This document shows, in pieces, positions 887 through 62,901 of a stretch of DNA of 64,000 nucleotides. Origin of the DNA: Anadara kagoshimensis (taxonomy: Eukaryota > Mollusca > Bivalvia > Arcoida > Arcidae). The notes beneath the pieces were generated by a model. The model had not been told where the DNA came from, searched no databases, and saw only the letters and a program-made list of their open reading frames with translations. The position numbers and the translations under genes are program-made. The stretch spans positions 69,481,260-69,545,259 of the forward strand of contig CM037870.1 of assembly GCA_021292105.1 (NCBI GenBank), given 5' to 3'. How positions within the stretch are numbered: position 1 is the stretch's first letter; each line of letters opens with the position of its first letter.

Positions 887-1050
887 TTGATGGCCTTTTG
901 TCCAATGAATAGATCTATGTGTATGGCATAACTCTGCAACTGCAGACATCGGTGAAAAATGAACACCATCTAGACACAAACCATGGTGATGTGTTATAAT
1001 CTTAGAGTTGGCGAGGGCAGTTATTACTCCGAGTTTGTCACATATATGAG
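887..1050 (-). CDS. Gene 3 exon C1 (C-terminal domain, first part)
   Basis: 164-nt exon, phase 1 in and 0 out, with AAG before it and GTAAGC after it. It encodes ICDKLGVITALANSKI and then ends LCHTHRSIHWTKGHQ. It aligns along its length with exon C1 of gene 1 (ITCDKLDIITALAHSEI ... LCNTTESRRWVKGAQ). The shared residues are CDKL, ITALA-S-I, a central Leu-x0-1-Cys-x-Asp-Gly and a final L-C-...-W-x-K-G. This conservation on the opposite strand 29 kb away, with matching splice phases, is strong evidence that it is coding. See the gene 1 C1 entry for a tentative fold assignment. Confidence 0.75.
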
Positions 1051-1456
1051 CTTAAATTTAAATAGTTTACATAAAATGAATAAAGTTGGTGCTGTGTAAA
1101 AGACAGCTCACGTATCAAAGAAAAAATAAAACACCATTGAAATAAAGTTCTACTACAAGCTACATCTAAAGAGTTAATAATACAAAATCGGTTAATGGTT
1201 ATGTATCAGTTACTATATAAACTCGTTATTGCGTTATTGAGAAATATGACAAAAGCAATTTCCATCATACCTCATTAGCAGAAGCGAATTTCAATGGTTT
1301 TTGAATAACATTTCTTGTGTACCATGATACTGGCTTAATCCCTTTGACCTAATTCGTTTGAGCAACGATGCATTTTTTTAAATATAAACTTTGCCATTGT
1401 AGCTTTAGGGTGATGCATAATTGCTTCTTTATTCAGTCTTGGCTAAAGCGAATTAC
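1051..1456 (-). other. Gene 3 intron between ST and C1
   Basis: AT-rich intron sequence. I see no further exon, repeat or RNA gene in it. Confidence 0.5.
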
Positions 1457-1621
1457 CTGGTTTGGAAGACAATGTGGTTGCAGGTACTTGTACCATAGTA
1501 CTGGTACTTGGTTCTTGTGTCGAAGTAGTGGTAATTGGTACATGTGTTGTTGTAATTGTTTTAGTTGAAGATTTCGTACTCGAACTTGTTGTTCTTAAAA
1601 CGTCTATGACAGTTCTTGATG
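1457..1621 (-). CDS. Gene 3 Ser/Thr-rich mucin-like exon (ST)
   Basis: 165-nt exon, phase 1-1, with acceptor ...TATCAG and donor GTAATT. The encoded 55 residues are mostly Thr and Ser with Pro (for example TTSSSTKSSTKTITTT and TSTQEPSTSTM), a composition typical of an O-glycosylated extracellular linker. It sits between the second cysteine module and the C-terminal domain, as do the ST exons of genes 1 (28335) and 2 (62740). Sequence is not conserved between paralogues but composition, phase and position are. The plus-strand open frame over the same bases is a shadow. Confidence 0.72.
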
Positions 1622-1792
1622 CTGATATATAAAGTAATAACAAGCGGTGAATTTTCAAAGAAGTGTAAAACACCAGATGCAAACGAACGAAATTATTACC
1701 CGAAATGAAGTAGTGCCAAACATCACTGGAAGTAAAGTTTCAAAAATCTAGCATGAAATTAGCTAATATAATATATAGATCATTTCTATATA

Positions 1793-1796
<4 letters not shown>

Positions 1797-1828
<32 letters not shown>
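1797..1828. repeat. (ATA)n microsatellite
   Basis: About ten tandem ATA/AAT triplets in the B2-ST intron of gene 3. Confidence 0.95.
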
Positions 1829-1829
<1 letters not shown>

Positions 1830-2690
1830 GAGTATTAATGTAATGACGGATGCATCATAACAAATAAGGCACCCAAACGAACAAGTGTGCCATTTTGTGA
1901 ATTTGAAGTCTTAAAATAATTCCTACTCTTTATTTAAAACCTTTATGTGAAATTTCATTAATTAAAGCACTTTTAATTTTCCAAGAGGAGGGTGGGATTG
2001 AATAGAGGCAGGGTCCGAACTGTTTAAGTATTGAGATCCCCATCCCTAGACTTTATATTTCCTGGCTCTGTGTGAAAAGTTGAATAGAGTGGTATAAAAG
2101 AAAACTACAGCTTCATTCTCACAAATTTCATAATGTCAAAGCCACTATCTGTAAAGAAAATTATATAATTATTCCTTTAGCCTCTAGGCAAGCTTATAGG
2201 GTTAAAAATCAACCACAATGGCACTCGTCCATTCAAATCAAAATTTGATTACAATTTTGACAGCATAATTGATTGTAATTGTTTTAAACCTTTATGCAAA
2301 CATTCACTCAAATAACATGCTCCATCCCCATCATTTGAATATTGGTAATCAATAAACATATATCAAATCAAGTCTTAAAATAAAAAACAAAATATTACAA
2401 GTTAATTTCTAATAATGCATTAAAGCAGCGATTCAAAATAAAAGTTACTATTTGATCAACAGAAATTTTAAATTTGGAAAATTGGTGTTTGATAAAAAGT
2501 TAACTTAATACATACAATGTAATATTGTGTAAATGAATAAGTGATCAATTGTGTAAATTATGCTAAATGATCACATAATATAGTATTTTTAGCAATAGTA
2601 CATGTATAAAGGTTGTCATTTTAACAATGGAAAACTGTCATTGGGTTACTCCTATTTTAAACCATTTAATGCAGTGTAATAAAACACAAA
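1829..2690. other. Intron sequence without recognised features
   Basis: AT-rich, no supported open frame, no repeat that I recognise elsewhere in the window. It is part of the long intron between B2 and ST of gene 3. Confidence 0.5.
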
Positions 2691-2691
2691 C

Positions 2692-3415
2692 ATACTAATC
2701 CATGTCCGAATCACAATCCAGAAGCAAAGTAAAAACTTTGGAACTGACAAGTTAGGTTAGACACGTGAAATTCCACCAGAGAAGTGAGGTCGGGTGCTCC
2801 GGAAGGGTAAGCACCTTCTTTTTATCTAGCTACATCCGCAACGCGTGTAATCAAAATTGTATGAGATGAACATGGAACTATGAGACGTCAAATATATCCA
2901 GGGCAATCCTGGACACAGAGACACCTTGGCTTGCAATATTCCTGAGTCAAAAATTTATTTGCAAGCAGCCTGCTCCGTTGTACAAAGTGCCTGTAGTGAC
3001 AACACGCTCTACCATAGCGTATTAATTGGACAACAAAACGACATAAGCAGGAGAAGCAGGTACATAAAAACGGAAAACTAACAATAGAAAAATTGAAGTC
3101 ATCACGTTTGTTATAAAGTTTCAAATGTAGCCTTTTGTGGGCGAACAGAACTTCAAGCTCACTAGGATAGATGGAATTCACATAGTCTCCAAATTTAGGA
3201 TTGTTAAGAGACAGAACGTCATCTATATATCTGTATGTTGAGTCGAATGATTTGGCGACAGTCTTCTGTCCAGATTTAACAAAGTTCTGTATAAGTTCTG
3301 CTTTATAAGAAACAAACCAGCAAGCAATGGTACACACTTTGTGGCCATTGGTAAGATTTCTTTTTCTTCATTACAAAGCAGCGTATATTCTATTACTCCG
3401 TTTGGCAGCAAGAAG
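2692..3415 (-). mobile_element. Penelope-like retroelement 3' fragment with broken RT
   Basis: On the minus strand the sequence encodes pieces of a reverse transcriptase: YRYIDDVLSLNNPKFGDYVN (the Y-I-D-D catalytic motif), then LHLKLYNKRDDFNFSIV and LIRYGRA. These are followed by the family's 3' tail, which ends near a TCCGAATCACAATCCAGAAG block. Compared with the copy at 6925-8290, the segment between the catalytic motif and LHLKLYNKRDD is deleted and the frame is broken. It is a dead, 5'-truncated copy in an intron of gene 3. Confidence 0.8.
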
Positions 3416-3619: not shown

Positions 3620-3668
3620 GACAGCAACCTCCCACACACTCCGCATCTTCTGTGTTAATTAACATACA
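3620..3668 (-). CDS. Gene 3 exon B2 (49-nt cysteine microexon)
   Basis: 49-nt exon, phase 0 in and 1 out, acceptor AATTACAG and donor GTACGT. It encodes CMLINTEDAECVGGCC, fitting the family pattern C-x9-C-x3-C-C. Seven B exons in the window have exactly this length. It follows A2 of gene 3 and completes the second A+B module; splicing to ST creates a Pro codon. Confidence 0.82.
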
Positions 3669-4534: not shown

Positions 4535-4791
4535 CTTGTCGTCATATTGGAAGGTTTTATAAATTATATTGGCAACATCGTGTAGTTCGACGTTATGTAT
4601 CCCATGAACTGTATGACATTGATAGTGATTCCTGCAGTCTTTCTTATGATGTTGTATTTGAAATTCGCTCTGATGGCTACAGTGCATAGACTGTGAACAA
4701 TATGGCTGTTGGTGATTCCTTGGACATATAGCGCATTGTACCGATAAAATTGTATCTTTTGAAGGTTTCGTTCCGGATGCAAAGCGTGTTC
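4535..4791 (-). CDS. Gene 3 exon A2 (second cysteine domain A)
   Basis: 257-nt exon, phase 1 in and 0 out, acceptor TCTAACAG and donor GTAAGA. About 19 residues of linker (TRFASGTKPSKDTILSVQ) precede the domain. The domain starts CAICPRNHQQPYC, reaches a second pair in MHC, then has CRNHYQC (C-x5-C), then HNVELHD and ends IIYKTFQYDDK. It has six cysteines in the same order as the other A exons. Exon B2 supplies the following C-x9-C-x3-C-C. Family unrecognised; likely an extracellular disulfide-bonded domain. Two other open frames over this stretch are shadows. Confidence 0.82.
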
Positions 4792-5485: not shown

Positions 5486-5489
5486 ATTA

Positions 5490-6220: not shown

Positions 6221-6224
6221 GAAA

Positions 6225-6639: not shown

Positions 6640-6688
6640 TACAGCAGTAACCATCACATGATACATCAGAAGCTAATACTATTGCACA
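6640..6688 (-). CDS. Gene 3 exon B1 (49-nt cysteine microexon)
   Basis: 49-nt exon, phase 0-1, acceptor TTTACAG and donor GTAAGT. It encodes CAIVLASDVSCDGYCC, again C-x9-C-x3-C-C. The closest relatives by eye are the first B exons of gene 2 (CAILLASAVTCKDDCC) and gene 1 (CAMVKASTIECDHFCC). First-position and second-position B exons thus look orthologous across the three genes. Confidence 0.83.
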
Positions 6689-6924: not shown

Positions 6925-8290
6925 AATCAAAAACAAACATGCTAATCCATGTCCGAATCACAATCCAGAAGCAAAGTAAAAACTTTGGAACTGACAAGTT
7001 AGGTTAGACACGCGAATTTCTACCAGGGAAGTAAGGCCGGGTGCTCCGGAAGGGTAAGCACTTCCTGGTTAACTACCTACACCCGCCACGTGTGTAATCA
7101 AAATTGTGTAGAAGGAACATGAAACTATGAGACGTCAAATATATCCAGGGCAATCCTGGACACAGAGACATTAAACTTATCAAGAATACTGTGATGACGG
7201 CCATAAAACTTTTTGAGGGCCTTGATAAGACAATTTATTTGCAAGCAGCCTACTTCGTTGTACAAAGTCCCCGTAGTGGGAACAAGCTCTACCATAGCGT
7301 ATTAATTGGGAAACAATTACACCATAAGCAGGAGAAGCAGGTATATTGCTGCATAAAAAAGGAAAGTTGACAATAGAAAAATTGAAGTGATCACGTTTGT
7401 CATAAAGTTTCAAATGTAGCCTTTCGTGTGCGTCATAATTTAGGTATAAGTCTAAATATGAAGCAGAACTTGAGGAATCAGTCGTGTCTTTTATTTCAAG
7501 CTCACTAGAATAGGTGAGATTTACATAGTCTCCAAATTTAGGATTGTTAAGAGACAGAACGTCATCTATATATCTGTATGTTGAGTTGAATGATTTGGCG
7601 ACAGTCTTCTCTCCAGATTTAACAAGGTTCTGCACAAATTTTGCTTCATAAGAATAGAGAAACAAATCAGAAAGCAATGGTGCACAGTTTGTACCCATTG
7701 GTATACCGATTGTTTGCTGAAAAACTATACATGTATTTCCAAACACAACAAATCTATCAAAAACTTCAACATTTTGTTGATGATATCTTCAATATATTTT
7801 TGTTTGGAATCCGTATGATGCTTGACAAAATAACCAGAATCCGTGTTCAGCACCAGATATTTGTATCTTGGCTTACCGTTTTTTGTAAAAGAAAGACAAG
7901 TGAATAATTTCTTTAAGACGTTCTTTCAATTTAGAATGAGGGATATTGGTGTATAGTGTAGAAAAATCAAATGTTTTTTTTTTACTTTTTACATGAGATA
8001 AAGTATTAGGAGCAAGATGTTCAAGTAATTCTTTAGAATTTTTGAGAATCCACATTTGGTTGATTCCAGATGTAGAATATACTTTTTCTGAATAAGACTG
8101 AAGACCATCTTTGACGATTGTCAAAATTTGTGTTAGAGTTACCGATAATGATTTGGTAGTACATTAGATGAGCCTGTTATATATCTTTCCTTGTATGGAT
8201 TTTTATGGTAAAACCATGTTCAGTAGATTTTGAAATAAAATCCAAACTCAAATCACAATATTTTAATTTTATATATTAAAATATTTAAAC
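6925..8290 (-). mobile_element. Penelope-like retroelement, longest copy
   Basis: Minus-strand remnant with recognisable reverse-transcriptase motifs in order. DFSTLYTNIPH (motif A type) lies near 7960, QQTIGIPMGTNCAPLL (motif B) near 7700, and YRYIDDVLSLNN (motif C, catalytic DD) near 7580. YDKRDHFNFSIVNFPFLC and SPAYGVIVSQLIRYGRA follow downstream. The non-coding 3' tail then runs to the TCCGAATCACAATCCAGAAG end near 6945. This motif set is known from Penelope-like elements. No GIY-YIG endonuclease domain is visible, so the 5' part and the far 3' coding part are missing or never present. It lies in the intron between A1 and B1 of gene 3. Confidence 0.82.
7180..8130 (-). pseudogene. Penelope-like reverse transcriptase, broken
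   Basis: Two separate open segments (about 8124-7873 and 7746-7180) encode successive parts of one reverse transcriptase: the DFSTLYTNIPH block in the first, and motifs B (IGIPMGTNCAP) and C (YIDDV) in the second. Between them the frame changes, with remnants such as YRYLVLNTDSGYF-like codons in another frame, so the gene is frameshifted. The second segment keeps both catalytic aspartates. Later residues, LLANKL and what follows, run into a stop at the end. It is not functional as it stands. Confidence 0.75.
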
Positions 8291-8972: not shown

Positions 8973-9263
8973 CTTGTTGTCATATTGTAAATATCTATAC
9001 ATTTTGTCTTCATACTCAACCATCTGAGAATTATGCAGGTTGCCCATTTCATAGCATGAATGATGATATCGACAATTAATACCGTGTGATAATTGACGTA
9101 AGCCGGTCATCAGATCATGGTATAGTCCAGATTCATTCACATCGATGCGGTTTTTTCCGCAATGTGTCTCATGAATACAAAACTGGCCTAGAGTATCCCT
9201 GGGACAGATTCTACAGCACTGTGTACCAAAGATTCCAAAACACAGGATGACAAGTATATAAAG
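8973..9263 (-). CDS. Gene 3 exon A1 (signal peptide plus first cysteine domain A)
   Basis: 291-nt exon, phase 0-0, acceptor ACTTAG and donor GTAAGT. It opens with a hydrophobic signal peptide (LYILVILCFGIFGTQ) followed directly by CCRICPRDTLGQFCIHETHC. Next come SGLYHDLMTGL, CRYHHSC (C-x5-C), NSQMVEYEDKMYRYLQY and the exon end DNK. The exon has no Met at its start; the start codon is best placed at 11602-11600 in the preceding exon, also phase 0. The domain pattern matches A1 of gene 2, and the frame is intact throughout. Confidence 0.85.
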
Positions 9264-15397: not shown

Positions 15398-15707
15398 GAT
15401 TTTATAAAATTGCAATCGTTGGACTATTGTGTACCGCGGTGTTAGCAACATCACAGGAATGTAGGATGTGCCCAAAGAAGTCACAGCCACTCTTTCTGTA
15501 TGCAGTGACGCATTGTAAGCAAGCATGGTTGATCCTTTAAACTCCGGTCTCATAAAAAGGGATAATATCCGGGATTTTTTCATGACGCTTTTACATCGTC
15601 ACAATTGTGACATCATAGATCACTGCCGAGTGTTCCATGATCTACGTAACGTACAACTGATCGAGTACAATGATGAGATATTTAAATATTTTCAATACGG
15701 AGAAAAT
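15398..15707 (+). CDS. Gene 1 exon A1 (signal peptide plus cysteine domain A, frameshifted)
   Basis: 310-nt exon with acceptor TTTTAG and donor GTAAGT. The first frame gives a signal peptide, FYKIAIVGLLCTAVLA, then TSQECRMCPKKSQ and THCKQ. A second frame, entered near 15520, gives SGLIKRDNIRDFF, CDIIDHC (C-x5-C), NVQLIEYNDEIFKYFQYGEN. Between them one base is missing (expected length 311 for phase 1 in, 0 out). The third cysteine of the domain, usually in YC or FC, is replaced in LFLYAV. Reading the signal frame implies phase 1 at the acceptor, whereas A1 of genes 2 and 3 is phase 0. This copy therefore looks the most decayed at its 5' end. Confidence 0.65.
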
Positions 15708-16748: not shown

Positions 16749-17126
16749 GTGAGTGTACACATATTTACGTACAAAAATAATCAACAATTTTCTCAATACT
16801 GACATAGTATTTTATTGTGATTTTAGGAGCATGCTCCAGTATAGTGCGCTCGCGTTGATCCATAAAAATACAAGATAGGACCGATGTGTAAAGTGCCGTA
16901 TCGGTCCTTAAAATCTGGGAAAAAAAAGAAACTGTCTAATTTAAGGATATGTTTTTTCTTACATTATTTGAATCATATACCGTACTGATCAGTATCATTA
17001 AACAAATTTTCAACAAGTACCGATAGATAATTCTAGTCCAAGTTTAACATGGACGATTGACCTTTGAATATTCAAACAGACTGATCAACTGTGTAATATT
17101 GGGGGCTAGATCAAGTTGTCATTTTC

Positions 17127-20100
17127 GTTGTATGTGTTCCATTCCTCCTCACTCTCGTTTTCCTATACTTCTATTTGTTGTTTCGTGTTTTGGTGGTATG
17201 TGTTCCATTCCTACCCACTCTCGTTTTCTTATACTTCTGTTTGTTGTTTCGTGTTTTGGTGGTATATGTTCCATACCTCCCCACTCTTGTTTTCTTATAC
17301 TTCTGTTTGTTGTTTCGTGTTTTGGTGGTATGTGTTCCATACCTCCCCACTCTTGTTTTCTTATACTTCTGTTTGTTTTTTCGTGTTTTGGTGGTATATG
17401 TTCCATTCCTCCCCACTCTCGTTTTCCTATACTTCTATTTGTTGTTTCGTGTTTTGGTGGTATGTGTTCCATTCCTACCCACTCTTGTTTTCTTATACTT
17501 CTGTTTGTTGTTTCGTGTTTTGGTGGTATGTGTTCCATTCCTACCCACTCTTGTTTTCTTATACTTCTGTTTGTTGTTTCGTGTTTTGGTGGTATGTGTT
17601 CCATACCTCCCCACTCTTGTTTTCTTATACTTCTGTTTGTTGTTTCGTGTTTTGGTGGTATGTGTTCCATTCCTACCCACTCTTGTTTTCTTATACTTCT
17701 GTTTGTTGTTTCGTGTTTTGGTGGTATGTGTTCCATACCTCCCCACTCTTGTTTTCTTATTCTTCTGTTTGTTGTTTCGTGCTTTGGTTGTATGTGTTCC
17801 ATTCCTCCCCACTGTTGTTTTTTATACTTCTGTTTGTTGTTTCGTGTTTTGGTGGTATGTGTTCCATTTCTCCACACTATCGTTTTCTTATACTTCTGTT
17901 TGTTGTTTCGTGTTTTGGTGGTATGTGTTCCATTCCTCACCACTATCGTTTTCTTATACTTCTGTTTGTTGTTTCGTGTTTTAGTGGTATGTGTTCCATT
18001 CCTCACCACTCTCGTTTTCTTATACTTCTGTTTGTTGTTTCGTGTTTTGGTGGTATGTGTTCCATACCTCCCCGCTCTTGTTTTCTTATACTTCTGTTTG
18101 TTGTTTCGTGTTTTGGTGGTATATGTTCCATACCTCCCCACTCTTGTTTTCTTATACTTCTGTTTGTTGTTTCGTGTTTTGGTGGCATATGTTCCATACC
18201 TCCCCACTCTTGTTTTCTTATACTTCTGTTTGTTGTTTCGTGTTTTGGTGGTATATGTTCCATACCTCCCCACTCTTGTTTTCTTATACTTCTGTTTGTT
18301 GTTTCGTGTTTTGGTGGTATGTGTTCCATTCCTCACCACTCTTGTTTTCTTATACTTCTGTTTTTTGTTTCGTGTTTTGGTGGTATATGTTCCATACCTC
18401 CCCACTCTTGTTTTCTTATACTTCTGTTTGTTGTTTCGTGTTTTGGTGGTATATGTTCCATACCTCCCCACTCTTGTTTTCTTATACTTCTGTTTGTTGT
18501 TTCGTGTTTTGGTGGTATGTGTTCCATTCCTCACCACTCTTGTTTTCTTATACTTCTGTTTGTTGTTTCGTGTTTTGGTGGTATGTGTTCCATTCCTCAC
18601 CACTCTTGTTTTCTTATACTTCTGTTTGTTGTTTCGTGTTTTGGTGGTATGTGTTCCATTCCTCACCACTCTTGTTTTCTTATACTTCTGTTTGTTGTTT
18701 CGTGTTTTGGTGGTATGTGTTCCATTCCTCACCACTCTTGTTTTCTTATACTTCTGTTTGTTGTTTCGTGTTTTGATGGTATGTGTTCCATTCCTCACCA
18801 CTCTTGTTTTCTTATACTTCTGTTTGTTGTTTCGTGTTTTGGTGGTATGTGTTCCATACCTCCCCACTCTTGTTTTCTTATACTTCTGTTTGTTTTTTCG
18901 TGTTTTGGTGGTATATGTTCCATTCCTCCCCACTCTCGTTTTCCTATACTTCTATTTGTTGTTTCGTGTTTTGGTGGTATGTGTTCCATTCCTACCCACT
19001 CTTGTTTTCTTATACTTCTGTTTGTTGTTTCGTGTTTTGGTGGTATGTGTTCCATACCTCCCCACTCTTGTTTTCTTATTCTTCTGTTTGTTGTTTCGTG
19101 CTTTGGTTGTATGTGTTCCATTCCTCCCCACTGTTGTTTTCTTATACTTCTGTTTGTTGTTTCGTGTTTTGGTGGTATGTGTTCCATTTCTCCACACTAT
19201 CGTTTTCTTATACTTCTGTTTGTTGTTTCGTGTTTTGGTGGTATGTGTTCCATTCCTCACCACTATCGTTTTCTTATACTTCTGTTTGTTGTTTCGTGTT
19301 TTAGTGGTATGTGTTCCATTCCTCACCACTCTCGTTTTCTTATACTTCTGTTTGTTGTTTCGTGTTTTGGTGGTATGTGTTCCATACCTCCCCGCTCTTG
19401 TTTTCTTATACTTCTGTTTGTTGTTTCGTGTTTTGGTGGTATATGTTCCATACCTCCCCACTCTTGTTTTCTTATACTTCTGTTTGTTGTTTCGTGTGTT
19501 TTGGTGGCATATGTTCCATACCTCCCCACTCTTGTTTTCTTATACTTCTGTTTGTTGTTTCGTGTTTTGGTGGTATATGTTCCATACCTCCCCACTCTTG
19601 TTTTCTTATACTTCTGTTTGTTGTTTCGTGTTTTGGTGGTATGTGTTCCATTCCTCACCACTCTTGTTTTCTTATACTTCTGTTTTTTGTTTCGTGTTTT
19701 GGTGGTATATGTTCCATACCTCCCCACTCTTGTTTTCTTATACTTCTGTTTGTTGTTTCGTGTTTTGGTGGTATATGTTCCATACCTCCCCACTCTTGTT
19801 TTCTTATACTTCTGTTTGTTGTTTCGTGTTTTGGTGGTATGTGTTCCATTCCTCACCACTCTTTTTTCTTATACTTCTGTTGTTGTTTCGTGTTTTGGTG
19901 GTATGTGTTCCATTCCTCACCACTCTTGTTTTCTTATACTTCTGTTTGTTGTTTCGTGTTTTGGTGGTATGTGTTCCATTCCTCACCACTCTTGTTTTCT
20001 TATACTTCTGTTTGTTGTTTCGTGTTTTGGTGGTATGTGTTCCATTCCTCACCACTCTTGTTTTCTTATACTTCTGTTTGTTGTTTCGTGTTTTGATGGT

Positions 20101-20285
20101 ATGTGTTCCATTCCTCACCACTCTTGTTTTCTTATACTTCTGTTTGTTGTTTCGTGTTTTGGTGGTATGTGTTCCATACCTCCCCACTCTTGTTTTCTTA
20201 TACTTCTGTTTGTATTTTCGTGTTTTGTTGGTATGTGTTCCATTTTTCTCCGCTCTTGTTTTCTTATACTTCTGTTTGTTGTTTC
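17127..20285 (+). repeat. 66-bp minisatellite, about 48 units
   Basis: Tandem units containing TATGTGTTCCATTCCTC, CCACTCTTGTTTTCTTATAC and TTCTGTTTGTTGTTTCGTG. The unit is 22 codons long and lacks stops in several frames. It therefore yields open frames of up to about 1,090 codons on the plus strand and about 590 on the minus strand; none has a start context, a sensible composition or a paralogue. Variant order shows a higher-order duplication of about 1,320 bp (20 units): the run ending TCCACACTAT recurs at 17880 and 19200. The array lies in the B1-A2 intron of gene 1. Confidence 0.95.
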
Positions 20286-22874: not shown

Positions 22875-23167
22875 ATGCACCTAAAATGCATCGTTGGGAG
22901 ATACCCGAAAACACTATAGTGTCCAAGAAATGTACCATCTGTTACAGAACGAACCCTTACCATATTCACTACTGCACAAAATACCATGATAATTGTGGTA
23001 GTATTGACCATTCCGAATTGGTGACCGACGGGAATATGGAAGACGTGACTAAACATCATCATTGTACTACTATACACAAAAACTGTCATGAGTATTCCGA
23101 TTTCCGCGACATCCATTTAATTGAACACAAGGGAAGGGTTTATAAATATTTTAAGCGTGAACATAAG
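22875..23167 (+). CDS. Gene 1 exon A2 (second cysteine domain A)
   Basis: 293-nt exon, phase 1-0, acceptor TTTACAG and donor GTAAGT. A short lead (APKMHRWEIPENTIVSKK) precedes CTICYRTNPYHIHYC, CGSIDHSELV, a His-rich HHHCTTIHKNC, then FRDIHLIEHKGRVYKYFKREHK. The usual Pro after C-x2-C is Tyr here, and the late pair is spaced C-x6-C rather than C-x5-C. The His-rich character (HHHC) is the strongest of all copies. The frame is intact. Confidence 0.83.
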
Positions 23168-23740: not shown

Positions 23741-23789
23741 TGCGTGTTGATGTTTACAGAAGAGTTTAAGTGTGAACAAAACTGTTGTC
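23741..23789 (+). CDS. Gene 1 exon B2 (49-nt cysteine microexon)
   Basis: 49-nt exon, phase 0-1, acceptor TTCACAG and donor GTAAGT. It encodes CVLMFTEEFKCEQNCC. Its last seven bases plus the donor, TGTTGTC|GTAAGTAA, are the seed of the minisatellite that follows. Splicing to ST gives a Gln codon. Confidence 0.82.
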
Positions 23790-28334: not shown

Positions 28335-28415
28335 AACATTCCACAACATCTTCAATAACAATGACAACAACGAGACCCGCGGCCAAGACAACAAAATCAG
28401 TGATGCTAAATAATG
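28335..28415 (+). CDS. Gene 1 Thr-rich exon (ST)
   Basis: 81-nt exon, phase 1-1, acceptor TTTACAG and donor GTACCA. It encodes HSTTSSITMTTTRPAAKTTK and a short SVMLNN end; with C1 the junction codon is Gly. It is the shortest of the three ST exons, so the stalk between the cysteine modules and the C-terminal domain varies in length between paralogues. Confidence 0.68.
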
Positions 28416-30253: not shown

Positions 30254-30420
30254 GTATAACATGTGATAAACTTGACATTATAACTGCACTTGCACATTCT
30301 GAGATAGTAACAAGTCGTCCTGACTTAGTATGTTCTGACGGCAGACATTCCCTATCCGAAGCCGCAGTAATAAAATTATGTAACACAACGGAATCTCGAC
30401 GCTGGGTAAAGGGTGCACAG
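30254..30420 (+). CDS. Gene 1 exon C1 (C-terminal domain, first part)
   Basis: 167-nt exon, phase 1-0, acceptor TTTTCAG and donor GTACAT. It encodes ITCDKLDIITALAHSEI, then RPDLVCSDGRHSLSEAAVIK, then LCNTTESRRWVKGAQ. The paralogue at 887-1050 confirms it. Together with C2 and C3 the order of features (helix ending before W-x-K-G, then Y-T-A-I-A-S-I, a small-residue strand, then a D) resembles the BPSL0067/NlpC-P60-like amidase fold as I remember it. This is a tentative reading. If right, the position of the catalytic Cys is not a cysteine in either copy, so the domain would be a non-catalytic relative. Confidence 0.78.
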
Positions 30421-31340: not shown

Positions 31341-31459
31341 GTCATACCTAATTGTTTCCATATAAATCATACACGGCCATTGCTTCAATAACTGATTCTG
31401 GATATTCTAAAGACGGAGTTTCTGGGGTAATGGTGAGCTGTAACTCAACTCATATCAAG
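31341..31459 (+). CDS. Gene 1 exon C2 (C-terminal domain, middle part, frameshifted)
   Basis: 119-nt exon, acceptor TTGTAG and donor GTAATG. The first frame continues C1 with VIPNCFHINH. The second frame, entered by about 31370, gives YTAIASITDSGYSKDGVSGV and MVSCNSTHIK. One base is missing between them (120 expected for phase 0-0). Without the repair the protein would stop after about 16 codons. No other acceptor is available, so this is a real frame break in the given sequence, by mutation or by consensus error. Confidence 0.62.
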
Positions 31460-33806: not shown

Positions 33807-33911
33807 TTTGCAACTCAGGACTGTAATGGTGGATTAGGACTTATAGAAGTGAATGTATTTGACAAGAATACATACACAAGTAATGCATTGAATTATTATA
33901 TTATCAACTAG
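33807..33911 (+). CDS. Gene 1 exon C3 (last coding exon with stop)
   Basis: 105 nt from acceptor TTTGTAG to TAG, phase 0. It encodes FATQDCNGGLGLIEVNVFDK and NTYTSNALNYYIIN then stop. It joins C2 in phase (HIK|FATQDC). The tandem polyadenylation signals 35-44 bp after the stop support this as the gene end. The hydrophobic-acidic pattern and DC fit a folded domain end rather than a membrane anchor; there is no transmembrane segment or clear GPI signal, so the product is probably fully secreted. Confidence 0.72.
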   Translation, partial: FATQDCNGGLGLIEVNVFDKNTYTSNALNYYIIN

Positions 33912-36502: not shown

Positions 36503-36509
36503 TACAACG

Positions 36510-45100: not shown

Positions 45101-48100
45101 TCTATAGTTAAATGTTCTGGTGTTCATCTATATAGTTAAATGTTCTGGTGTTCATCTATAGTTAAATGTTCTGGTGTTCATCTATAGTTAAATATTCTGG
45201 TGTTCATCTACAGTTAAATGTTCTGGTGTTCATTTATAGTTAAATGTTCTGGTGTTCATCTATAGTTAAATGTTCTGGTGTTCATCTATATAGTTAAATG
45301 TTCTGGTGTTCATCTATAGTTAAATGTTCTGGTGTTCATCTATAGTTAAATGTTCTGGTGTTCATTTATAGTTAAATGTTCTGGTGTTCATCTATATAGT
45401 TAAAAGTTCTGGTGTTCATCTATATAGTTAAATGTTCTGGTGTTCATCTATAGTTAAATGTTCTGGTGTTCATCTATTGTTAAATATTCTGGTGTTCATC
45501 TATAGTTAAATGCTCTGGTGTTCATCTATATAGTTAAATGTTCTGATGTTCATCTATATAGTTAAATGTTCTGGTGTTCATCTATAGTTAAATGTTCTGG
45601 TGTTCATCTATATAGTTAAATGTTCTGGTGTTCATCTATAGTTAAATGTTCTGGTGTTAATCTATAGTTAAATGTTCTGGTGTTCATCTATTGTTAAATG
45701 TTCTGGTGTTCATCTGTATAGTTAAATGTTCTGGTGTTCATCTATATAGTTAAATGTTCTGGTGTTCATCTATATAGATAAATGTTCTGGTGTTCATCTA
45801 TAGTTAAATGTTCTGGTGTTCATCTATACTTAAATTTCTGGTGTTCATCTATATAGTTAAATGTTCTGGTGTTCATCTATAGTTAAATGTTCTGGTGTTC
45901 ATCTATAGTTAAATGTTCTGGTGTTCATCTATATAGTTAAATGTTCTGGTGTTCATCTATATAGTTAAATGTTCTGGTGTTCTTCTATAGTTAAATGTTC
46001 TGGTGTTCATCTATACTTAAATTTCTGGTGTTCATCTATATAGTTTAATATTCTGGTGTTCATCTATAGTTAAATGTTCTGGTGTTCATCTATATAGTTA
46101 AATGTTCTGGTGTTCATCTATATAGTTAAATGTTCTGGTGTTCATCTATAGTTAAATGTTCTGGTGTTTATCTTTAGTTAAATGTTCTGGTGTTCATTAT
46201 AGTTAAATGTTCTGGTGTTATCATATAGCTAAATGTTCTGGTGTTCATCTATAGTTAAATGTTCTGGTTTCATCTATTGTTACATGTTCTGGTGTTCATC
46301 TATAGTTAAATGTTCTGGTGTTCATCTATATAGTTAAATGTTCTGGTGTTCATCTATAGTTAAATGTTCTGGTGTTCATCTAACCTAAATGTTCTGGTGT
46401 TCATCTATAGTTAAATGTTCTGGTGTTCATCTATAGTTAAATGTTCTGGTGTTCATCTATAGTTAAATGTTCTGGTGTTCATCTATTGTTACATGTTCTG
46501 GTGTTCATCTATAGTTAAATGTTCTGGTGTTCATCTATTGTTAAATGTTCTGGTGTTCATCTATTGTTACATGTTCTGGTGTTCATCTATAGTTAAATGT
46601 TCTGGTGTTCATCTATAGTTAAATGTTCTGGTGTTCATCTATACCAAATGTTTGTGGTTTTGTTCATCTATAGTTAAATGTTGTGGTGTTCATCTATAGT
46701 TAAATGTTCTGGTGTTCATCTATATAGTTAAATGTTCTGGTGTTCATATATAGTTAAACATGTTCTGGTGTTCATCTATAGTTAAATGTTCTGGTGTTCA
46801 TCTATAGTTAAATGTTCTGGTGTTCATCTATTGTTAAATGTTCTGGTTTCATCTATAGTTAAATGTTCTGGTGTTCTCTATATAGTTAAATGTTCTGTGT
46901 TCATCTATAGTTAAATGTTCTGGTGTTCATATATAGTTAAATGTTCTGGTGTTCATTTATAGTCAAATGTTCTGGTGTTCATCTATAGTTAAAATGTTCT
47001 GGTGTTCATCTATAGTTAAAGTTCTGGTGTTCATCTATTGTTAAATGTTCTGGTGTTCATCTATAGTTAAAAGTTCTGGTGTTCATATATAGTTAAATGT
47101 TCTGTGTGTTCTTCTATAGTTAAATGTTCTGGTGTTTCATCTATAGTTAAATGTTCTGGTGTTCATCTATAGTTAAATGTTCTGGTGTTCATCTATAGTT
47201 AAATTTCTGGTGTTCATCTATATTAAATATGTCTGGTGTTCATCTATAGTTAAATGTTCTGGTGTTCATATTATTAAATGTTCTGGTGTTCATCTATAGT
47301 TAAATGTTTCTGGTGTTCATTTATAGTTAAATGTTCTGGTGTTCATCTATAGTTAAATGTTCTGGTGTCATCTATATAGTTAAATGTTCTGGTGTGTCAT
47401 ATATAGTTAAATGTTCTGGTGTTCATCTATAGTAAATGTTCTGGTGTTCATTATAGTTAAATGTTCTGGTGTTCATATATAGTTAAATGTTCTGGTGTTC
47501 ATCTATATAGTAAAATGTTCTGGTGTTCATCTATAGTTAAATGTTCTGGTGTTCATCTATGTTAAATGTTCTGGTGTTCTATATTAGTTAAATGTTCTGG
47601 TGTTCATCTATATAGTTAAATGTTCTGGTGTTCATCTATTAGTTAAATGTTCTGGTGTTCATCTATAGTTAAATGTTCTGGTGTTCATCTATAGTTAAAT
47701 GTTCTGGTGTGTTTCATCTATATAGTTAAATGTTTGGTGTTCATCTATAGTTAAATATTCTGGTGTTCATCTATTGTTAAATGTTCTGGTGTTCATCTAT
47801 ATAGTAAATGTTCTGGTTGTTCATCTATATAGTTAAATATTCTGGAGTTCATCTATAGTTAAATGTTCTGGTGTTCATTATATAGTTAAATGTTCTGGTG
47901 TTCATCTATAGTTAAATGTTCTGGTGTCCATCTATAGTTAAATGTTCTGGTGTTCATTTATAGTTAAATGTTCTGGTGTTCATATATATAGCTAAATGTT
48001 CTGGTGTTCATCTATAGTTAAATGTTGTGGTGTTCATCTATAGTTAAATGTTGTGGTGTTCATCTATAGTTAAATGTTCTGGTGTTCATCTATTGTTACA

Positions 48101-51100
48101 TGTTCTGGTGTTCATCTATAGTTAAATGTTCTGGTGTTCATCTATATAGTTAAATGTTCTGGTGTTCATCTATAGTTAAATGTTCTGGTGTTCATCTATA
48201 GTTAGTTAAATGTTCTGGTGTTCATGTATAGTTAAATGTTCTGGTGTTCATCTATAGTCAAATGTTCTGGTGTTTATCTATAGTTAAATGTTCTGGTGTT
48301 CATCTATAGTTAAATGTTCTGGTGTTCATCTATATAGTTAAATGTTCTGGTGTTCATCTATTGTTAAATGTTCTGGTGTTCATCTATAGTTAAATGTTCT
48401 GGTGTTCATCTATACTTAAATGTTCTGGTGTTCATCTATATAGTTAAATGTTCTGGTGTTCATCTATAGTTAAATGTTCTGGTGTTCATCTATAGTTAAA
48501 TGTTCTGGTGTTCATCTATAGTTAAATGTTCTGGTGTTCATCTATAGTTAAATGTTCTGGTGTTCATCTATAGTTAAATGTTCTGGTGTTCATCTATTGT
48601 TACATGTTCTGGTGTTCATCTATAGTTCAATGTTCTGGTGTTCATCTATATAGTTAAATGTTCTGGTGTTCATCTATTGTTAAATATTCTGGTGTTCATC
48701 TATAGTTAAATGTTCTGGTGTTCATCTATAGTTAAATGTTCTGGTGTTCATCTATTGTTACATGTTCTGGTGTTCATCTATAGTTAAATGTTCTGGTGTT
48801 CATCTATAGTTAAATGTTCTGGTGTTCATCTATAGTTAAATGTTCTGGTGTTCATCTATATAGTTAAATGTTCTGGTGTTCATCTATAGTTAAATGTTCT
48901 GGTGTTCATCTATATAGTTAAATGTTCTGGTGTTCATCTATAGTTAAATGTTCTGGTGTTAATCTATAGTTAAATGTTCTGGTGTTTATCTATAGATAAA
49001 TGTTCTGGTGTTCATCTATAGTTAAATATGCTGTTGTTCATCTATAGTTAAATGTTCTGGTGTTCATCTATATAGTTAAATGTTCTGGTGTTCATCTATA
49101 GTTAAATGTTCTGGTGTTCATCTATAGTTAAATGTTCTGGTGTTCATCTATACTTAAATGTTCTGGTGTTCATCTATATAGTTAAATGTTCTGGTGTTCA
49201 TCTATAGTTAAATGTTCTGGTGTTCATCTATAGTTAAATGTTCTGGTGTTCATCTATATAGTTAAATGTTCTGGTGTTCATCTATATAGTTAAATGTTCT
49301 GGTGTTCATCTATAGTTAAATGTTCTGGTGTTCATCTATATAGTTAAATGTTCTGGTGTTCATCTATAGTTAAATGTTCTGGTGTTCATCTATAGTTAAA
49401 TGTTCTGGTGTTCATCTATACTTAAATGTTCTGGTGTTCATCTATATAGTTGAATATTCTGGTGTTCATCTATAGTTAAATGTTCTGGTGTTCATCTATA
49501 GTTAAATGTTCTGGTGTTCATCTATAGTTAAATGTTCTGGTGTTCATCTATATAGTTAAATGTTCTGGTGTTCATCTATATAGTTAAATGTTCTGGTGTT
49601 CATCTATAGTTAAATGTTCTGGTGTTCATCTATAGTTAAATGTTCTGGTGTTCATCTATAGTTAAATGTTCTGGTGTTCATCTATAGTTAAATGTTCTGG
49701 TGTTCATCTATACTTAAATGTTCTGGTGTTGATCTATAGTTAAATATTCTGGTGTTCATCTATATAGTTAAATGTTCTGGTGTTCATCTATATAGTTAAA
49801 TGTTCTGGTGTTCATCTATAGTTAAATGTTCTGGTGTTCATCTATAGTTAAATGTTCTGGTGTTCATCTATACTTAAATGTTCTGGTGTTGATCTATAGT
49901 TAAATGTTCTGGTGTTCATCTATACTTAAATGTTCTGGTGTTCATCTATATAGTTAAATATTCTGGTGTTCATCTATAGTTAAATGTTCTGGTGTTCATC
50001 TATAGTTAAATGTTCTGGTGTTCATCTATAGTTAAATGTTCTGGTGTTCATCTATATAGTTAAATATTCTGGTGTTCATCTATATAGTTAAATATTCTGG
50101 TGTTCATCTATAGTTAAATGTTCTGGTGTTCATCTATAGTTAAATGTTCTGGTGTTCATCTATATAGTTAAATGTTCTGGTGTTCATCTATATAGTTAAA
50201 TGTTCTGGTGTTCATCTATATAGTTAAATGTTGTGGTGTTCATCTATAGTTAAATGTTGTGGTGTTCATCTATATAGTTAAATGTTCAGGTGTTCATCTA
50301 TATAGTTAAATGTTCTGGTGTTCATCTATAGTTAAATGTTGTGGTGTTCATCTATAGTTAAATGTTGTGGTGTTCATCTATATAGTTAAATGTTCTGGTG
50401 TTCATCTATATAGTTAAATGTTCTGGTGTTCATCTATAGTTAAATGTTCTGGTGTTCATCTATAGTTAAATGTTCTGGTGTTCATCTATACTTAAATGTT
50501 CTGATGTTCATCTATATAGTTGAATATTCTGGTGTTCATCTATAGAGTTAAATGTTCTGGTGTTCATCTATAGTTAAATGTTCTGGTGTTCATCTATAGT
50601 TAAATGTTCTGGTGTTCATCTATACTTAAATGTTCTGGTGTTGATCTATAGTTAAATGTTCTGGTGTTCATCTATATAGTTAAATGTTCTGGTGTTCATC
50701 TATAGTTAAATGTTCTGGTGTTGATCTATAGTTAAATATTCTGGTGTTCATCTATATAGTTAAATGTTCTGGTGTTTATCTATATAGTTAAATGTTCTGG
50801 TGTTCATCTATAGTTAAATGTTCTGGTGTTCATCTATACTTAAATGTTCTGGTGTTGATCTATAGTTAAATGTTCTGGTGTTCATCTATACTTAAATGTT
50901 CTGGTGTTCATCTATATAGTTAAATATTCTGGTGTTCATCTATAGTTAAATGTTCTGGTGTTCATCTGTAGTTAAATGTTCTGGTGTTCATCTATAGTTA
51001 AATGTTCTGGTGTTCATCTATATAGTTAAATATTCTGGTGTTCATCTATATAGTTAAATATTCTGGTGTTCATCTATAGTTAAATGTTCTGGTGTTCATC

Positions 51101-51553
51101 TATAGTTAAATGTTCTGGTGTTCATCTATATAGTTAAATGTTCTGGTGTTCATCTATATAGTTAAATGTTCTGGTGTTCATCTATAGTTAAATGTTGTGG
51201 TGTTCATCTATAGTTAAATGTTGTGGTGTTCATCTATATAGTTAAATGTTCTGGTGTTCATCTATATAGTTAAATGTTCTGGTGTTCATCTATAGTTAAA
51301 TGTTGTGTGTTCATCTATAGTTAATGTTGTGTGTTCATCTATATAGTTAAATGTTCTGGTGTTCATCTATATAGTTAAATGTTCTGGTGTTCATCTATAG
51401 TTAATGTTGTGGTGTTTCATCTATAGTTTAAATGTTGTGGTGTTTCATCTATATAGTTAAATGTTCTGGTGTTCATCTATAGTTAAATGTTCTGGTTTGT
51501 CATTAATATTTAAATTAAAGGTCAAGCGGACAGGTCAATGTTGTTTGTTTATA
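42105..51553 (+). mobile_element. MITE family B split by a 9.2-kb minisatellite
   Basis: Left end GTAGGCAAACAACATTGACC at 42105. Right end AATTAAAGGTCAAGCGGACA ... AATGTTGTTTGTTTATA at about 51510-51553. The halves match the two ends of the complete copies at 31843 and 32124. The minisatellite occupies the interior. Confidence 0.6.
42312..51497 (+). repeat. 26/28-bp minisatellite, about 340 units
   Basis: Unit TGGTGTTCATCTATAGTTAA plus ATGTTC (26 bp), with a 28-bp variant having TATATAGTT. Variants include TATTGTT, TATACTT and TTGTGG. A higher-order repeat of about 2.09 kb is visible (GTGTTAATCT at 43561 and 45654). Between about 46150 and 47900 units carry many single-base losses and gains not seen elsewhere. 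It lies in the A1-B1 intron of gene 2. Confidence 0.96.
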
Positions 51554-51591: not shown

Positions 51592-51640
51592 TGTGCCATA
51601 TTGTTAGCATCTGCTGTTACTTGTAAGGACGACTGTTGTA
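51592..51640 (+). CDS. Gene 2 exon B1 (49-nt cysteine microexon)
   Basis: 49-nt exon, phase 0-1, acceptor GTTTACAG and donor GTAAGT. It encodes CAILLASAVTCKDDCC. It follows the minisatellite by under 100 bp. Confidence 0.83.
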
Positions 51641-54640: not shown

Positions 54641-54924
54641 AATCCACTGACAGTGCCATTACAAGCTTTTCTTCAATAAACCCGCAATCTTGTGAAATAT
54701 GTGTAGCCCGTCATCATCACAGCTTTTGTGGCAACCAGAACCATAACTGTGGTGTTGGTATCATAAGCTTACCACAGTCGGGTGTATATCACAATTTAAT
54801 GGATGTGACAGAACATCGCGGATGTCATCCCCATTTTGAATGTATTCAATATTCACAATTGAGAAATGTTCATATAGTGGAACAAAATGGAAGGATTTAC
54901 AAATATATGCAGCATGGCATTACA
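54641..54924 (+). CDS. Gene 2 exon A2 (second cysteine domain A)
   Basis: 284-nt exon, phase 1-0, acceptor TTTACAG and donor GTATGT. A Ser/Thr-rich lead (STDSAITSFSSINPQS) precedes CEICVARHHHSFCGNQNHNC, SGVYHNLMDVTEHRG, CHPHFEC (C-x5-C), LRNVHIVEQNGRIYKYMQHG and IT. The Pro after C-x2-C is Val here. Intact. An open frame that continues past the donor to 54942 is an artefact of reading the intron. Confidence 0.84.
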
Positions 54925-56968: not shown

Positions 56969-57017
56969 TGTTCCATATTTGACACAGAAGATATTTACTG
57001 CCACCATGGTTGTTGTG
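56969..57017 (+). CDS. Gene 2 exon B2 (49-nt cysteine microexon)
   Basis: 49-nt exon, phase 0-1, acceptor TTTATAG and donor GTAAGT. It encodes CSIFDTEDIYCHHGCC; TED-x2 resembles B2 of gene 3 (CMLINTEDAECVGGCC). Confidence 0.83.
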
Positions 57018-57766: not shown

Positions 57767-58094
57767 CTGCAATGTCTAATTTTGTTGACACTACAACATC
57801 AAGAACATCATCTATAGGACCTCCTATACAAACGACATTACCAACAACAACAACCATACCTAGAACAAACTCTAAGACTTGTTATATTTGTCCAAAGAGT
57901 CAATACCATCCAATGTGTATTCGTGGGGTTGATTGTTTATCTGGATTGGATAATATTCAGAATGTTAACATGAATTGTTGTATCTTCAGAACCGAAATTT
58001 ATGCCACAATTATTCACATTGTAAAACAATCGATGATCACCGGACTATTATAGAAGACGACTTTCACTTTTTATACTTTAGACGACATAAAACG
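57767..58094 (+). CDS. Gene 2 exon A3 (Thr-rich lead plus cysteine domain A, frameshifted)
   Basis: 328-nt exon, acceptor CTTAACAG and donor GTACAT. A mucin-like lead (DTTTSRTSSIGPPIQTTLPT) is followed by CYICPKSQYHPMCIRGVDC. Near 57985 the frame must change by one base; the second frame then gives NLCHNYSHC (C-x5-C), RTIIEDDFHFLYFRRHKT up to the donor. The exon is one base short of the 329 nt expected for phase 1-0. Without a correction translation stops at the TAG near 58050. The fusion of an ST-like stretch to a domain A in one exon is unique to this copy. Confidence 0.66.
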
Positions 58095-60245: not shown

Positions 60246-60283
60246 CATAATATTATATGATTATATACATAACTTAACAATTA

Positions 60284-60559
60284 TTGTCTTTTAATGTGGT
60301 CGATATGGGATTATACGGACCTGATCAAAGTAATAACGACCTCTGTAAATATCATTTTGGTCAGGTTCGTATAATCCCTTATCCACCGAAAGACAGTAAT
60401 TGTTTTATTATATTAGACTTCAAAATGACATTTAACAATTCAGATGTCAGTGTATTTAGCAAAATGATGCAAACTTTGGCATTACTGGAGACGTCCATCG
60501 AGTCGGTAAAGCCGGTTTTAAAAGCTCTTTTGAATAAATTCTTGCTGGTTTCTTTGTGA
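60284..60559 (+). CDS. Unrecognised 91-codon open frame
   Basis: ATG-to-stop frame in the B3-linker intron of gene 2. The product includes VRIIPYPPKDSNCFIILDFK and ALLETSIESVKPVLKALLNK, which has more ordinary amino-acid usage than other chance frames in the window. A 24-bp inverted repeat (GGGATTATACGGACCTGATC and its complement) lies at 60307-60379 within it. I do not recognise a family. It could be a relic of a captured exon or a transposon protein, or chance. Confidence 0.2.
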   Translation: MSFNVVDMGLYGPDQSNNDLCKYHFGQVRIIPYPPKDSNCFIILDFKMTFNNSDVSVFSKMMQTLALLETSIESVKPVLKALLNKFLLVSL

Positions 60560-61735
60560 CAATGGGATGTTTTGATGCCAACATTTCCTCAAATCCTGAG
60601 GATTCTATAGACGCAATTGTTTACTGTGTTTGCCGCTGACATTTTAATTTTTGTGTATTGCCTTATTGTGTCAATGACGTCAGCGCGTGCTATCTTTTGA
60701 TGTCTTTTAATCATGACGTCATAATTTACGGGAAGTCCTTTTTCTATTTTTTTTTATTTATATTTTTATTTTTGTATAGCAAACATGAAATATCATATTT
60801 CGACCTAATTGTAATAAAAATTTATAATACAATATATACAATATACAACTGTCTGCATGGTTATTCAGTACATCGGTTGTCTATCTGTATATTCAGCGAA
60901 TATTGATAATGGAGGGGATAAAAGCAAGCTAGCAGTTATATATTTTATGGCTCAGGATTCAATTGATTTATACATTTATTCTACGATTTCAAATTATTAA
61001 CACCTCAAACTATTCTATTTTTAAACTTCTAATTTGCTTGAATTTACCTATGCATACATGTATATAGTGAAAAAATTTAGAACTGTAAATATATTTCCAA
61101 AACCTATAAAAAAAATTCAAAATTTTCCCAAATTGCTTAGTCTCATTTTTCTAATGCTATATTATAGTTTAATTTTGTCCTTAAACTGTTAAAATTTAAT
61201 TACTATGATTTGATCTGGCGTTGTATATATAATTTCTAACTAGGGTAAATATAAAGTTAAAAGGTTTTAACTTTTCCGAAATGTTTTGGTTACCAAAGAT
61301 GTTTTAGGATTTATTTCAAAATTTATCCCTTATTTTCAAATAGATTTTCTAATTTCTCCGAAAGATTATAAACATGTTGACACTCCTAAAACACTTTCTA
61401 TTTTTGATTGGAAAGTGGTCCGCTAACTTTTTGTTACCATTTATAGTTGTCCGCCAACTATTTATCGACTTTTTGAGGCATTGTTATTGAATATCGCTAT
61501 ATGTATCATTATAATTGACCAATCGGAGAAAAGAAGAACCCTCAGTCATATAGTTAAATGCATTATTGAATCAAAATATCAAATAACACAAAATCCCTTT
61601 AAACATATTTACAACAGTCTTATTTTTTAACCAATGTCCAAATCTTACTAACAAATTTTATACAAGGCAGATAAGCCATAAAAATAAAAAAAATGAATTT
61701 AACATTTTATTTTTTATTTAATTCATATTGTATAG
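60560..61735 (+). other. Gene 2 intron, no recognised feature
   Basis: Very AT-rich. I see no exon with family similarity before the linker at 61736. Confidence 0.45.
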
Positions 61736-61786
61736 CGCATGGCATAGTCACCCCACAAAATATGAAGTCGACAACAGAAACGAAGG
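61736..61786 (+). CDS. Gene 2 linker exon before A4
   Basis: 51-nt exon, phase 1-1, acceptor TTGTATAG and donor GTAAGC. It encodes HGIVTPQNMKSTTETK. Junction codons are Thr with B3 and Ala with A4, giving an open reading through three exons. It corresponds to the short linker that in other copies is part of exon A2. There is no paralogue, so support rests on splice sites and phase. Confidence 0.5.
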
Positions 61787-62029
61787 GTAAGCAATTTTAG
61801 AGAATGGTATACAATTTCAAGTACAATGCATTTGCATTCTTTAATGACTTTACTGAAAATATCTGTAAAACTTAAAAAGTATTTTTGTTAGTTTATTTAA
61901 GTCAGATATATTTTGCAATTATGTCAATTTCTTACTTGAAAAGTGTTAGTCTCCAATAATAGTTTTCATAATAATAATAATATAAATTTAAATAGTTTCT
62001 GAAGTGTTTTCTTGTTTTCGTGACTCCAG

Positions 62030-62127
62030 CATTTCCGTATCTGCATTGTGTAAAGGGAGATCACTGTGTCATTAGCAGTCATTGTGTATCAAGATCAGTT
62101 ATTGTCCATAAAGGCTATTTTAAACAT
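62030..62127 (+). CDS. Gene 2 exon A4 (truncated cysteine domain A)
   Basis: 98-nt exon, phase 1-0, acceptor ACTCCAG and donor GTAAAT. It encodes FPYLHCVKGDHCVISSHC and then VSRSVIVHKGYFKH. The part from HC onward resembles the end of domain A (C-x5-C, then a V-x-V/I-V strand and Y-F-K). The N-terminal C-x2-C-P half is absent. No B exon follows before ST. Confidence 0.5.
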
Positions 62128-62739
62128 GTAAATATTGCGATTTAATTTTTTAATTTAATTTTTTGTTAAAATTTTAATTACATTTAGCACAGAAAAGAGA
62201 GAAAAGTGGGAAAAATATATTTTGTTTTAAATCTGTCTATGTGCGTGTGTACATACCATAAATTTTGCCATTTTTTCAAGAATATCAATTTGGTTAAGTA
62301 TAAATACTTCCATTAGGTGCCTCATTATATTTTGGATATATGTAAGTTGTCCAGGTGTGAATTTTTTTTATTCAATCACGCAGGTGAAAGGTAAATTTTA
62401 CCCAACATTCACTTGTAATTTGGGGCCCAAATGGTTAGCTGGAATACATATTTTCTGTCACAAATGTGATTTTTCTATATACAGACGTTAACCAAAACAT
62501 GCAATATTGACAAAAATACACTTTTTAGTTAGGTCTCTGAATAATAAATGAATATGCACTGTTAATTTTTCCAAGCAATTCTTTATTAAAATGTAATTTA
62601 CAATATCCCATGTTCAAAATAGCCTTTATGGACAGTAGTATTATATACGTAAATATAAAAAGCTTGACAAAAGCCAATGTACACAAGAATTTGAAATAAT
62701 TTTGTAAAAGAAGATTAAATATTTTTATAAAATTTACAG

Positions 62740-62901
62740 AAAATATCACTCCATTTGCTACTACAACAACAAGACCCTCGACCACGATCATCAAAAGTAC
62801 AACTCCTCCAACTACAGCAACTGCCACAGCTAAGCAAACTACACCAACTAGTCAAACGCCATCACCCAAAACAACAACAACATCTAGGACAATAATAACA
62901 A
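62740..62901 (+). CDS. Gene 2 Thr-rich mucin-like exon (ST)
   Basis: 162-nt exon, phase 1-1, acceptor ATTTACAG and donor GTACGT. It encodes a Thr/Pro/Ser run such as PFATTTTRPSTTIIKSTTPP and TPTSQTPSPKTTTTSRTIIT, with one N-x-T sequon at the start (ENIT). It occupies the position of the ST exons of genes 1 and 3, so the C1-C3 exons are expected beyond 64000. Confidence 0.7.

Follow-up and report, generated by a model that had tools for sequence, protein, structure and literature searches.

A gene cluster for modular, putatively secreted proteins in Anadara kagoshimensis, with a C-terminal domain that resembles Tae2 amidases but lacks their catalytic residues

A stretch of 64,000 nucleotides from the bivalve Anadara kagoshimensis (GCA_021292105.1, contig CM037870.1; C14:69481260-69545259 in an assembly of 1.115 Gb and 36 contigs), hereafter the window, contains short cysteine-rich exons on both strands, which raises the question of what proteins they encode and what these proteins might do. 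The original prediction, made from the sequence alone, had read them as three genes of an undescribed family of modular secreted proteins, with repeated A and B cysteine modules, a mucin-like stalk and a C-terminal domain. This exon plan is confirmed, and the observation is larger than first stated. Four genes share the plan, and their C-terminal (C) domain looks like a peptidoglycan amidase domain of the Tae2 (type VI amidase effector 2)/BPSL0067 type without catalytic residues, for which binding or recognition is most likely the function.

A shared exon plan in four genes

The cluster consists of g1 (minus strand), g2 and g3 (plus strand) and g4 (minus strand), all built from A, B, Ser/Thr-rich (ST) and C1-C3 exons whose phases agree. 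Pattern and tblastn searches located seven A-like and six B exons inside the window, and a translated comparison of the 3' parts revealed that C1, C2 and C3 are conserved in all four genes, with the stop codon within C3. Gene g1 extends leftward past the window (C2 and C3), g3 extends rightward (C1-C3) and g4 lies entirely outside. The exons are listed below in window positions, with negative values and values above 64000 lying outside the window.

8973..9263, minus strand: g1 A1, hydrophobic signal-peptide end and first A module, phase 0-0
6640..6688, minus strand: g1 B1, phase 0-1
4535..4791, minus strand: g1 A2, phase 1-0
3620..3668, minus strand: g1 B2, phase 0-1
1457..1621, minus strand: g1 Ser/Thr-rich stalk, 55 residues, 51% Ser+Thr, phase 1-1
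887..1050, minus strand: g1 C1, Tae2-like domain, phase 1-0
-141..-260 and -1176..-1283, minus strand: g1 C2 and C3, left of the window
15398..15707, plus strand: g2 A1, signal-peptide-like start and A module, three single-base indels relative to an open second copy on contig C3
16700..16748, plus strand: g2 B1, phase 0-1
22875..23167, plus strand: g2 A2, phase 1-0
23741..23789, plus strand: g2 B2, phase 0-1, 3' end like the unit of the adjoining minisatellite
28335..28415, plus strand: g2 short Ser/Thr-rich exon, 43% Ser+Thr over 28 residues, phase 1-1
30254..30420, plus strand: g2 C1, phase 1-0
31341..31459, plus strand: g2 C2, window copy short by one base
33807..33911, plus strand: g2 C3, with the stop codon
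39280..39579, plus strand: g3 A1, hydrophobic signal-peptide end and A module, phase 0-0
51592..51640, plus strand: g3 B1, phase 0-1
54641..54924, plus strand: g3 A2, phase 1-0
56969..57017, plus strand: g3 B2, phase 0-1
57767..58094, plus strand: g3 A3, Ser/Thr linker and third A module, one-base frame break in the window, second copy open
62740..62901, plus strand: g3 Ser/Thr-rich stalk, 55 residues, 53% Ser+Thr, phase 1-1
64727-64893, 65297-65416 and 65960-66097, plus strand: g3 C1, C2 and C3, right of the window

Profiles of A and B were built from five modules of the window and scanned over the window and a flank of 30 kb on each side. These profiles recovered the A and B exons of the window, those at 15.4 and 57.9 kb (a broken and a third A exon) only in part, and no third B exon was found in g3 with the B profile, so that the use of its A3 is uncertain. 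The same scan revealed g4 at 79.5-83.8 kb on the minus strand; its A exons were matched with E values of 2.9e-20 and 2.1e-19, its B exons with 1.4e-7 and 8.5e-5, all ordered and on one strand. As g4 had no part in the building of the profiles, it provides an independent confirmation of the A+B module. The shared plan of A, B, ST and C1-C3 exons is thus borne out by the presence of these exons across the predicted span (887..62901) and by the held-out gene, while the count of three genes has to be corrected to four, g4 lying past the end of the window.

Joining the exons yielded open frames before the stop codon of 400 residues for g1, 422 for g3 (without A3) and 478 for g4, the first coding exon being absent from the joins; g2 was joined leaving out A1 and C2. 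The phases obtained on joining g1, g3 and g4 run 0-0, 0-1, 1-0, 0-1, 1-1, 1-0, 0-0, the very series that had been predicted, and since the exon borders were chosen partly by phase this agreement is supportive rather than blind. Acceptors are AG in all 30 joined exons and internal donors are GT in 25 of 26. The sole exception is a GC donor in g4 A2 (80748-80753, outside the window). By eye, the A1 exons open with a hydrophobic, signal-peptide-like stretch, and no membrane anchor was seen in the gene models, which finish with the C domain. The description of the family as modular and stalked, with a variable number of copies and signal-peptide-like starts, is supported.

The A+B module and the C domain

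The A+B module begins with C-x2-C, contains ten conserved cysteines and has a CC pair at its end. Neither Pfam nor PDB gave a significant match to it, NCBIfam gave none to A alone, and two A models, predicted without the B exon, had no significant Foldseek or VIA-align match. Protein-database searches gave one match each (P0001-P0003), for A+B an unnamed fragment; the three look like translated genomic pieces that are close to cluster exons in sequence and continue into the intron. No description of the family was found among the titles and abstract beginnings of open-licence literature, which for some of the searches formed part of far larger match sets. The earlier statement that one ten-cysteine module fits no nameable family agrees with these searches, in which no named family matched A+B; the C-terminal domain, however, is near a known family, Tae2/BPSL0067.

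An identity of A+B as a Ly6/LU domain was considered and is unsupported. LU domains are characterized by a terminal CC-x4-C-N and a three-finger all-beta fold, and A+B is like them in its C-x2-C start, its ten conserved cysteines and its final CC pair. It differs in that a Ly6-type Pfam profile gave no match at E 10 among five A+B and nine A sequences, and in its ending: each B exon stops one base after C-C, and no C-N follows in the joined frames, so that the terminal CC-x4-C-N is missing. The models of A without B display strands, one central helix of 12-14 residues and a C-terminal beta hairpin (best-of-five predicted local distance difference test scores, pLDDT, of 73.7 and 87.8, the other four being 55-69). 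The short Ser/Thr-rich exon between domains, with 43-54% Ser+Thr across the four stalk exons, recalls mucin-type stalked receptors and lectins, but the stalk measures merely 28-110 residues and Pfam gave no known lectin domain.

The C domain is the part with recognizable relatives. The NCBIfam model BPSL0067 (NF033857) was matched by all four cluster members, one of them a composite, and by nine of nine diverse paralogs, three from the cluster and six from elsewhere, the best E value (6.9e-4) being weak. Bacterial BPSL0067 members were found in one of eight and then in five of 369 genomes, with one genome (G005) common to both sets; an alignment of four of these members (A7), from which a fifth, a fragment, was dropped, matches the Tae2 amidase of PDB entry 6WIN at 7e-25. 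Comparison of the nine paralogs with A7 by hhalign gave a score of 30.9 (E 1.9e-4, 101 columns) and, in the reverse direction, of 32.7 (E 8.6e-5, 78 columns), against 24.7 for the best of 300 column shuffles, 12.7 for the reversed alignment and 10.6 over one column for the A module. Single sequences scored 7.6-16.3 bits with the A7 profile, and the best of 2700 shuffled sequences (2577 reported) reached 8.4. The C domain is collinear with the family through W..G..V, TAIA.F, G.(A/S)G/A and the terminal N-Y/F-x-I/V, and differs from it in the absence of the catalytic Cys and His from the counted exons, in its six conserved cysteines, in its division over three exons and in its fusion to A+B and a stalk. 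An SRCR-like reading of C1, suggested by a V-C-x-D-G string, was dropped once the BPSL0067 match appeared.

Within A7, the Cys with which the CVxLxK helix begins and the His of the HAA motif are invariant, and we take them to be the catalytic pair by comparison with NlpC/P60 enzymes, whose papain-type fold is characteristic of the Tae2 family. In the joint alignment with the nine paralogs, the Cys column holds Ser in eight and Pro in one, and the His column holds no His in any of the nine. A further 20 stretches (13 C1 and 7 C2), chosen from the matches of the genome search described below and read by eye from the spacing to conserved Cys and Trp residues, had Ser (10), Pro (1) or Lys (2) in C1 and no His in C2. 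In total, Cys occurs in none of 22 C1 exons (Ser 18, Pro 2, Lys 2), a set that includes near duplicates and leaves 16 of the 38 C1-type matches outside the count, and His in none of 16 C2 exons. The assignment of the Cys column may be off by one, yet there is no adjacent Cys; g2 C1 and two loci, L056 (Ser) and L057 (Pro), which stand outside the count, agree. Five cysteines of the C domain are conserved in all nine rows, and a sixth in all five rows that reach its position. Since two features that define the enzyme family, Cys and His, are missing and the two bit scores available lie under the curated cut-off, the domain is described here as Tae2-like and is not claimed as a Tae2 or Dae2 enzyme.

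The C domain occurs many times in the genome. A search with a limit of E 10 gave 74 exon matches, which lie on contigs C14, C3, C7 and C1 and are in many cases second copies; 38 are of C1 type by count, second copies and weak matches included. A fused C1-C2 exon was sought at 37.88 Mb of contig C1 and at C14:30.76 Mb and was not found. The C1 open frame of locus L048 starts from a hydrophobic leader, and L046 and L049 have an open hydrophobic stretch immediately before C1; across L046-L051, which begin some 180-270 bases before C1, the A and B profiles found nothing better than E 1.4. A short secreted protein composed of the C domain alone may be the common form, and the A-B-stalk fusion a derived one.

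Reading frames, second copies and intron repeats

In the window, g2 A1 has three single-base indels, and g2 C2 and g3 A3 have one each; the matching stretches in second copies are open (C3:54.40 Mb, C14:67.38 Mb and C14:67.40 Mb, with 96.5, 99.3 and 99.2% identity, respectively). There are no frame breaks in g1 or g4, nor in the joined exons of g3. The second copy of the cluster is split between C3:54.38-54.41 Mb, which holds g1 and the 5' half of g2, and C14:67.37-67.43 Mb, which holds the 3' half of g2, g3 and g4; positions 1-2000 of the window are 91% identical to the C3 copy. Further C-domain matches are paired likewise on C14 (66.76/69.13 Mb). The simplest reading is that a second haplotype has remained in two places of the assembly, and the indels of the window may be assembly errors or alleles.

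Coding constraint was evaluated by the Nei-Gojobori method, with g2 A1 taken from the second copy and g2 C2 excluded. The proportion of synonymous differences (pS) exceeded that of nonsynonymous differences (pN) in 24 of 24 paralog comparisons. Between g2 and g4, the ratio of nonsynonymous to synonymous substitution rates (dN/dS) was 0.44 for the C domain (C1 and C3; dN 0.15), 0.38 for A1 (dN 0.31) and 0.69 for A2 (dN 0.45); in this pair, protein-level divergence is thus greater for the A modules than for the C domain. The C domains of g2, g3 and g4 are close to one another (pS 0.19-0.32), whereas the A modules of g3 differ from those of g2 and g4 by a pS of 0.73-0.90, near or at saturation, and g2 and g4 resemble each other more in their A modules (pS 0.49 and 0.44). 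Because synonymous divergence is so unlike in the two halves of g2, g3 and g4, the 5' (A) and 3' (C) halves seem to have had different histories, for which exchange or gene conversion between paralogs would be the simplest explanation.

The introns are rich in repeats. A minisatellite of 58 copies of 26 bp (23783-25284) starts inside g2 B2, and its unit is like an exon end with a 5' splice site; it contains 31 occurrences of GTAAGT, with 0.4 expected, and hence a tandem array of potential splice donors. Another minisatellite with 26-bp units (42312-51515; 9.2 kb, 347 copies) fills most of the intron between g3 A1 and B1, and a third (17122-20285; 48 copies of 66 bp) lies in a g2 intron, where two plus-strand open frames of >1000 residues are probably a repeat artefact. 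Transposase-like fragments are common to the 3' regions of g2 and g3 (35516-36536 and, outside the window, 69133-70326), and reverse-transcriptase-like fragments lie in g1 introns (2888-3337 and 7180-7746), the first also matching near g3.

Possible functions and alternative explanations

The reading favoured here, in which our confidence is evenly balanced, is that the cluster encodes secreted A+B-stalk proteins with a dead, Tae2-descended C domain that act as humoral recognition or agglutination factors. Each gene would give rise to a protein with a signal peptide, two (in g3 perhaps three) ten-cysteine A+B modules, a stalk and a C domain. The Ser/Thr-rich stalk is probably O-glycosylated and would space the C domain, which would have descended from Tae2/BPSL0067. 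This domain retains the Tae2 core motifs but not the catalytic Cys and His, and it carries six conserved cysteines; it should therefore bind rather than cut, and may hold a ligand from the bacterial cell wall, such as a peptidoglycan fragment. The faster-diverging A+B modules may bind a second partner, be it a microbe, a host surface or mucus, and the outcome would be recognition or agglutination, possibly of microbes. The defence role guessed in the original prediction thereby gains a concrete lead, short of proof, from the likeness of the C domain to Tae2.

A passage of PMC5303276 describes the transfer of Tae genes from bacteria to eukaryotes, and passages of PMC10318531 report Tae2 homologs in both groups and their domestication in ticks. 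According to passages of PMC11347951, tick Dae2 kills bacteria and, with Hayes et al. as the source, eliminates Gram-positive bacteria; it is described there as an active antibacterial factor, unlike the C domain with its missing catalytic Cys and His. The main text of a compendium of horizontal gene transfer (PMC13342648) contains none of the terms 'amidase', 'bivalv' and 'peptidoglycan'.

The strongest alternative accepts the same proteins and gives them a non-immune role, as a structural or adhesive part of mucus, shell matrix or a gamete coat, with the Tae2-like fold as a scaffold. Proteins of mucus and extracellular matrix usually combine cysteine-rich repeats with a Ser/Thr-rich stalk, the catalytic residues are missing from every counted exon and the ligand would in either case be conjectural; on the other side, the expansion, with its 74 exon matches at E values of 10 or less (a number that includes second copies), is more like that of a recognition family, and passages of PMC10318531 and PMC11347951 indicate that the Tae2-like proteins tested in ticks act against bacteria. 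This role is unlikely on balance, with an appreciable chance of being correct.

Several results weigh against the favoured reading. The start-codon exon (exon 1) of the cluster genes was not found. With NF033857, C-domain scores of 14.4 and 17.0 bits lie below the curated cut-off of 27, and the best E value implies about 20 bits; single rows also match the unrelated models FolD (0.0073) and T9SS_PorQ (0.043). Searches of Pfam (best 0.25) and direct profile searches of PDB gave nothing significant for the C domain, and PHROGs gave matches at chance level (best 0.22). The hhalign probabilities are 47-60%, and two of the nine paralogs (7.6 and 8.3 bits) fall below the best shuffled score. No catalytically intact relative or amidase gene was found in the genome, where exon-split genes could escape detection: NF033857 gave four sub-cut-off matches, judged by eye to be noise, and a bacterial member used as query gave one. 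The direction and path of any transfer are therefore conjectural.

The sub-cut-off scores, the lack of significant Pfam and PDB matches and the two paralogs that singly fail to beat shuffles would also suit a separate, unnamed animal domain that resembles Tae2 by chance. That explanation appears improbable, since NF033857 was matched by all nine diverse paralogs and the collinear profile match exceeded 300 of 300 shuffles, while the A-module control against A7 gave nothing. It is still less probable that the C domain has remained an enzyme with a rearranged site: the Ser in the Cys column of 18 of 22 C1 exons is mostly followed by a conserved acid, forming a conserved S-E/D motif, but none of the 16 C2 exons has His in the His column and the Ser may simply cap a helix. 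A decaying set of pseudogenes, suggested by the frame-breaking indels in g2 A1, g2 C2 and g3 A3, is the least credible explanation, as these indels are absent from the second copies of the three exons, g1 and g4 are unbroken, g3 is unbroken in its joined exons and synonymous differences are in excess in every comparison.

Domesticated bacterial amidases are already known in animals as active killers. New here would be a dead amidase-like domain, expanded and built into stalked, multi-domain and probably secreted proteins with an undescribed disulphide module. The finding also offers a means of annotating proteins that gene callers are likely to miss or leave uncharacterised. More tentatively, and with rather less than even confidence, the lineage may have acquired a Tae2-type amidase, lost its active site and spread copies of the dead fold over a few dozen places as a binding domain, joining it in this cluster to a new ten-cysteine module that diverges independently of the C domain, and so have formed a lineage-specific, diversifying family of humoral recognition proteins. 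Peptidoglycan recognition proteins (PGRPs) exemplify a route from an amidase to non-catalytic forms. If the reading is true, these proteins would mark a comparable path, from a horizontally acquired weapon to a pattern-recognition domain.

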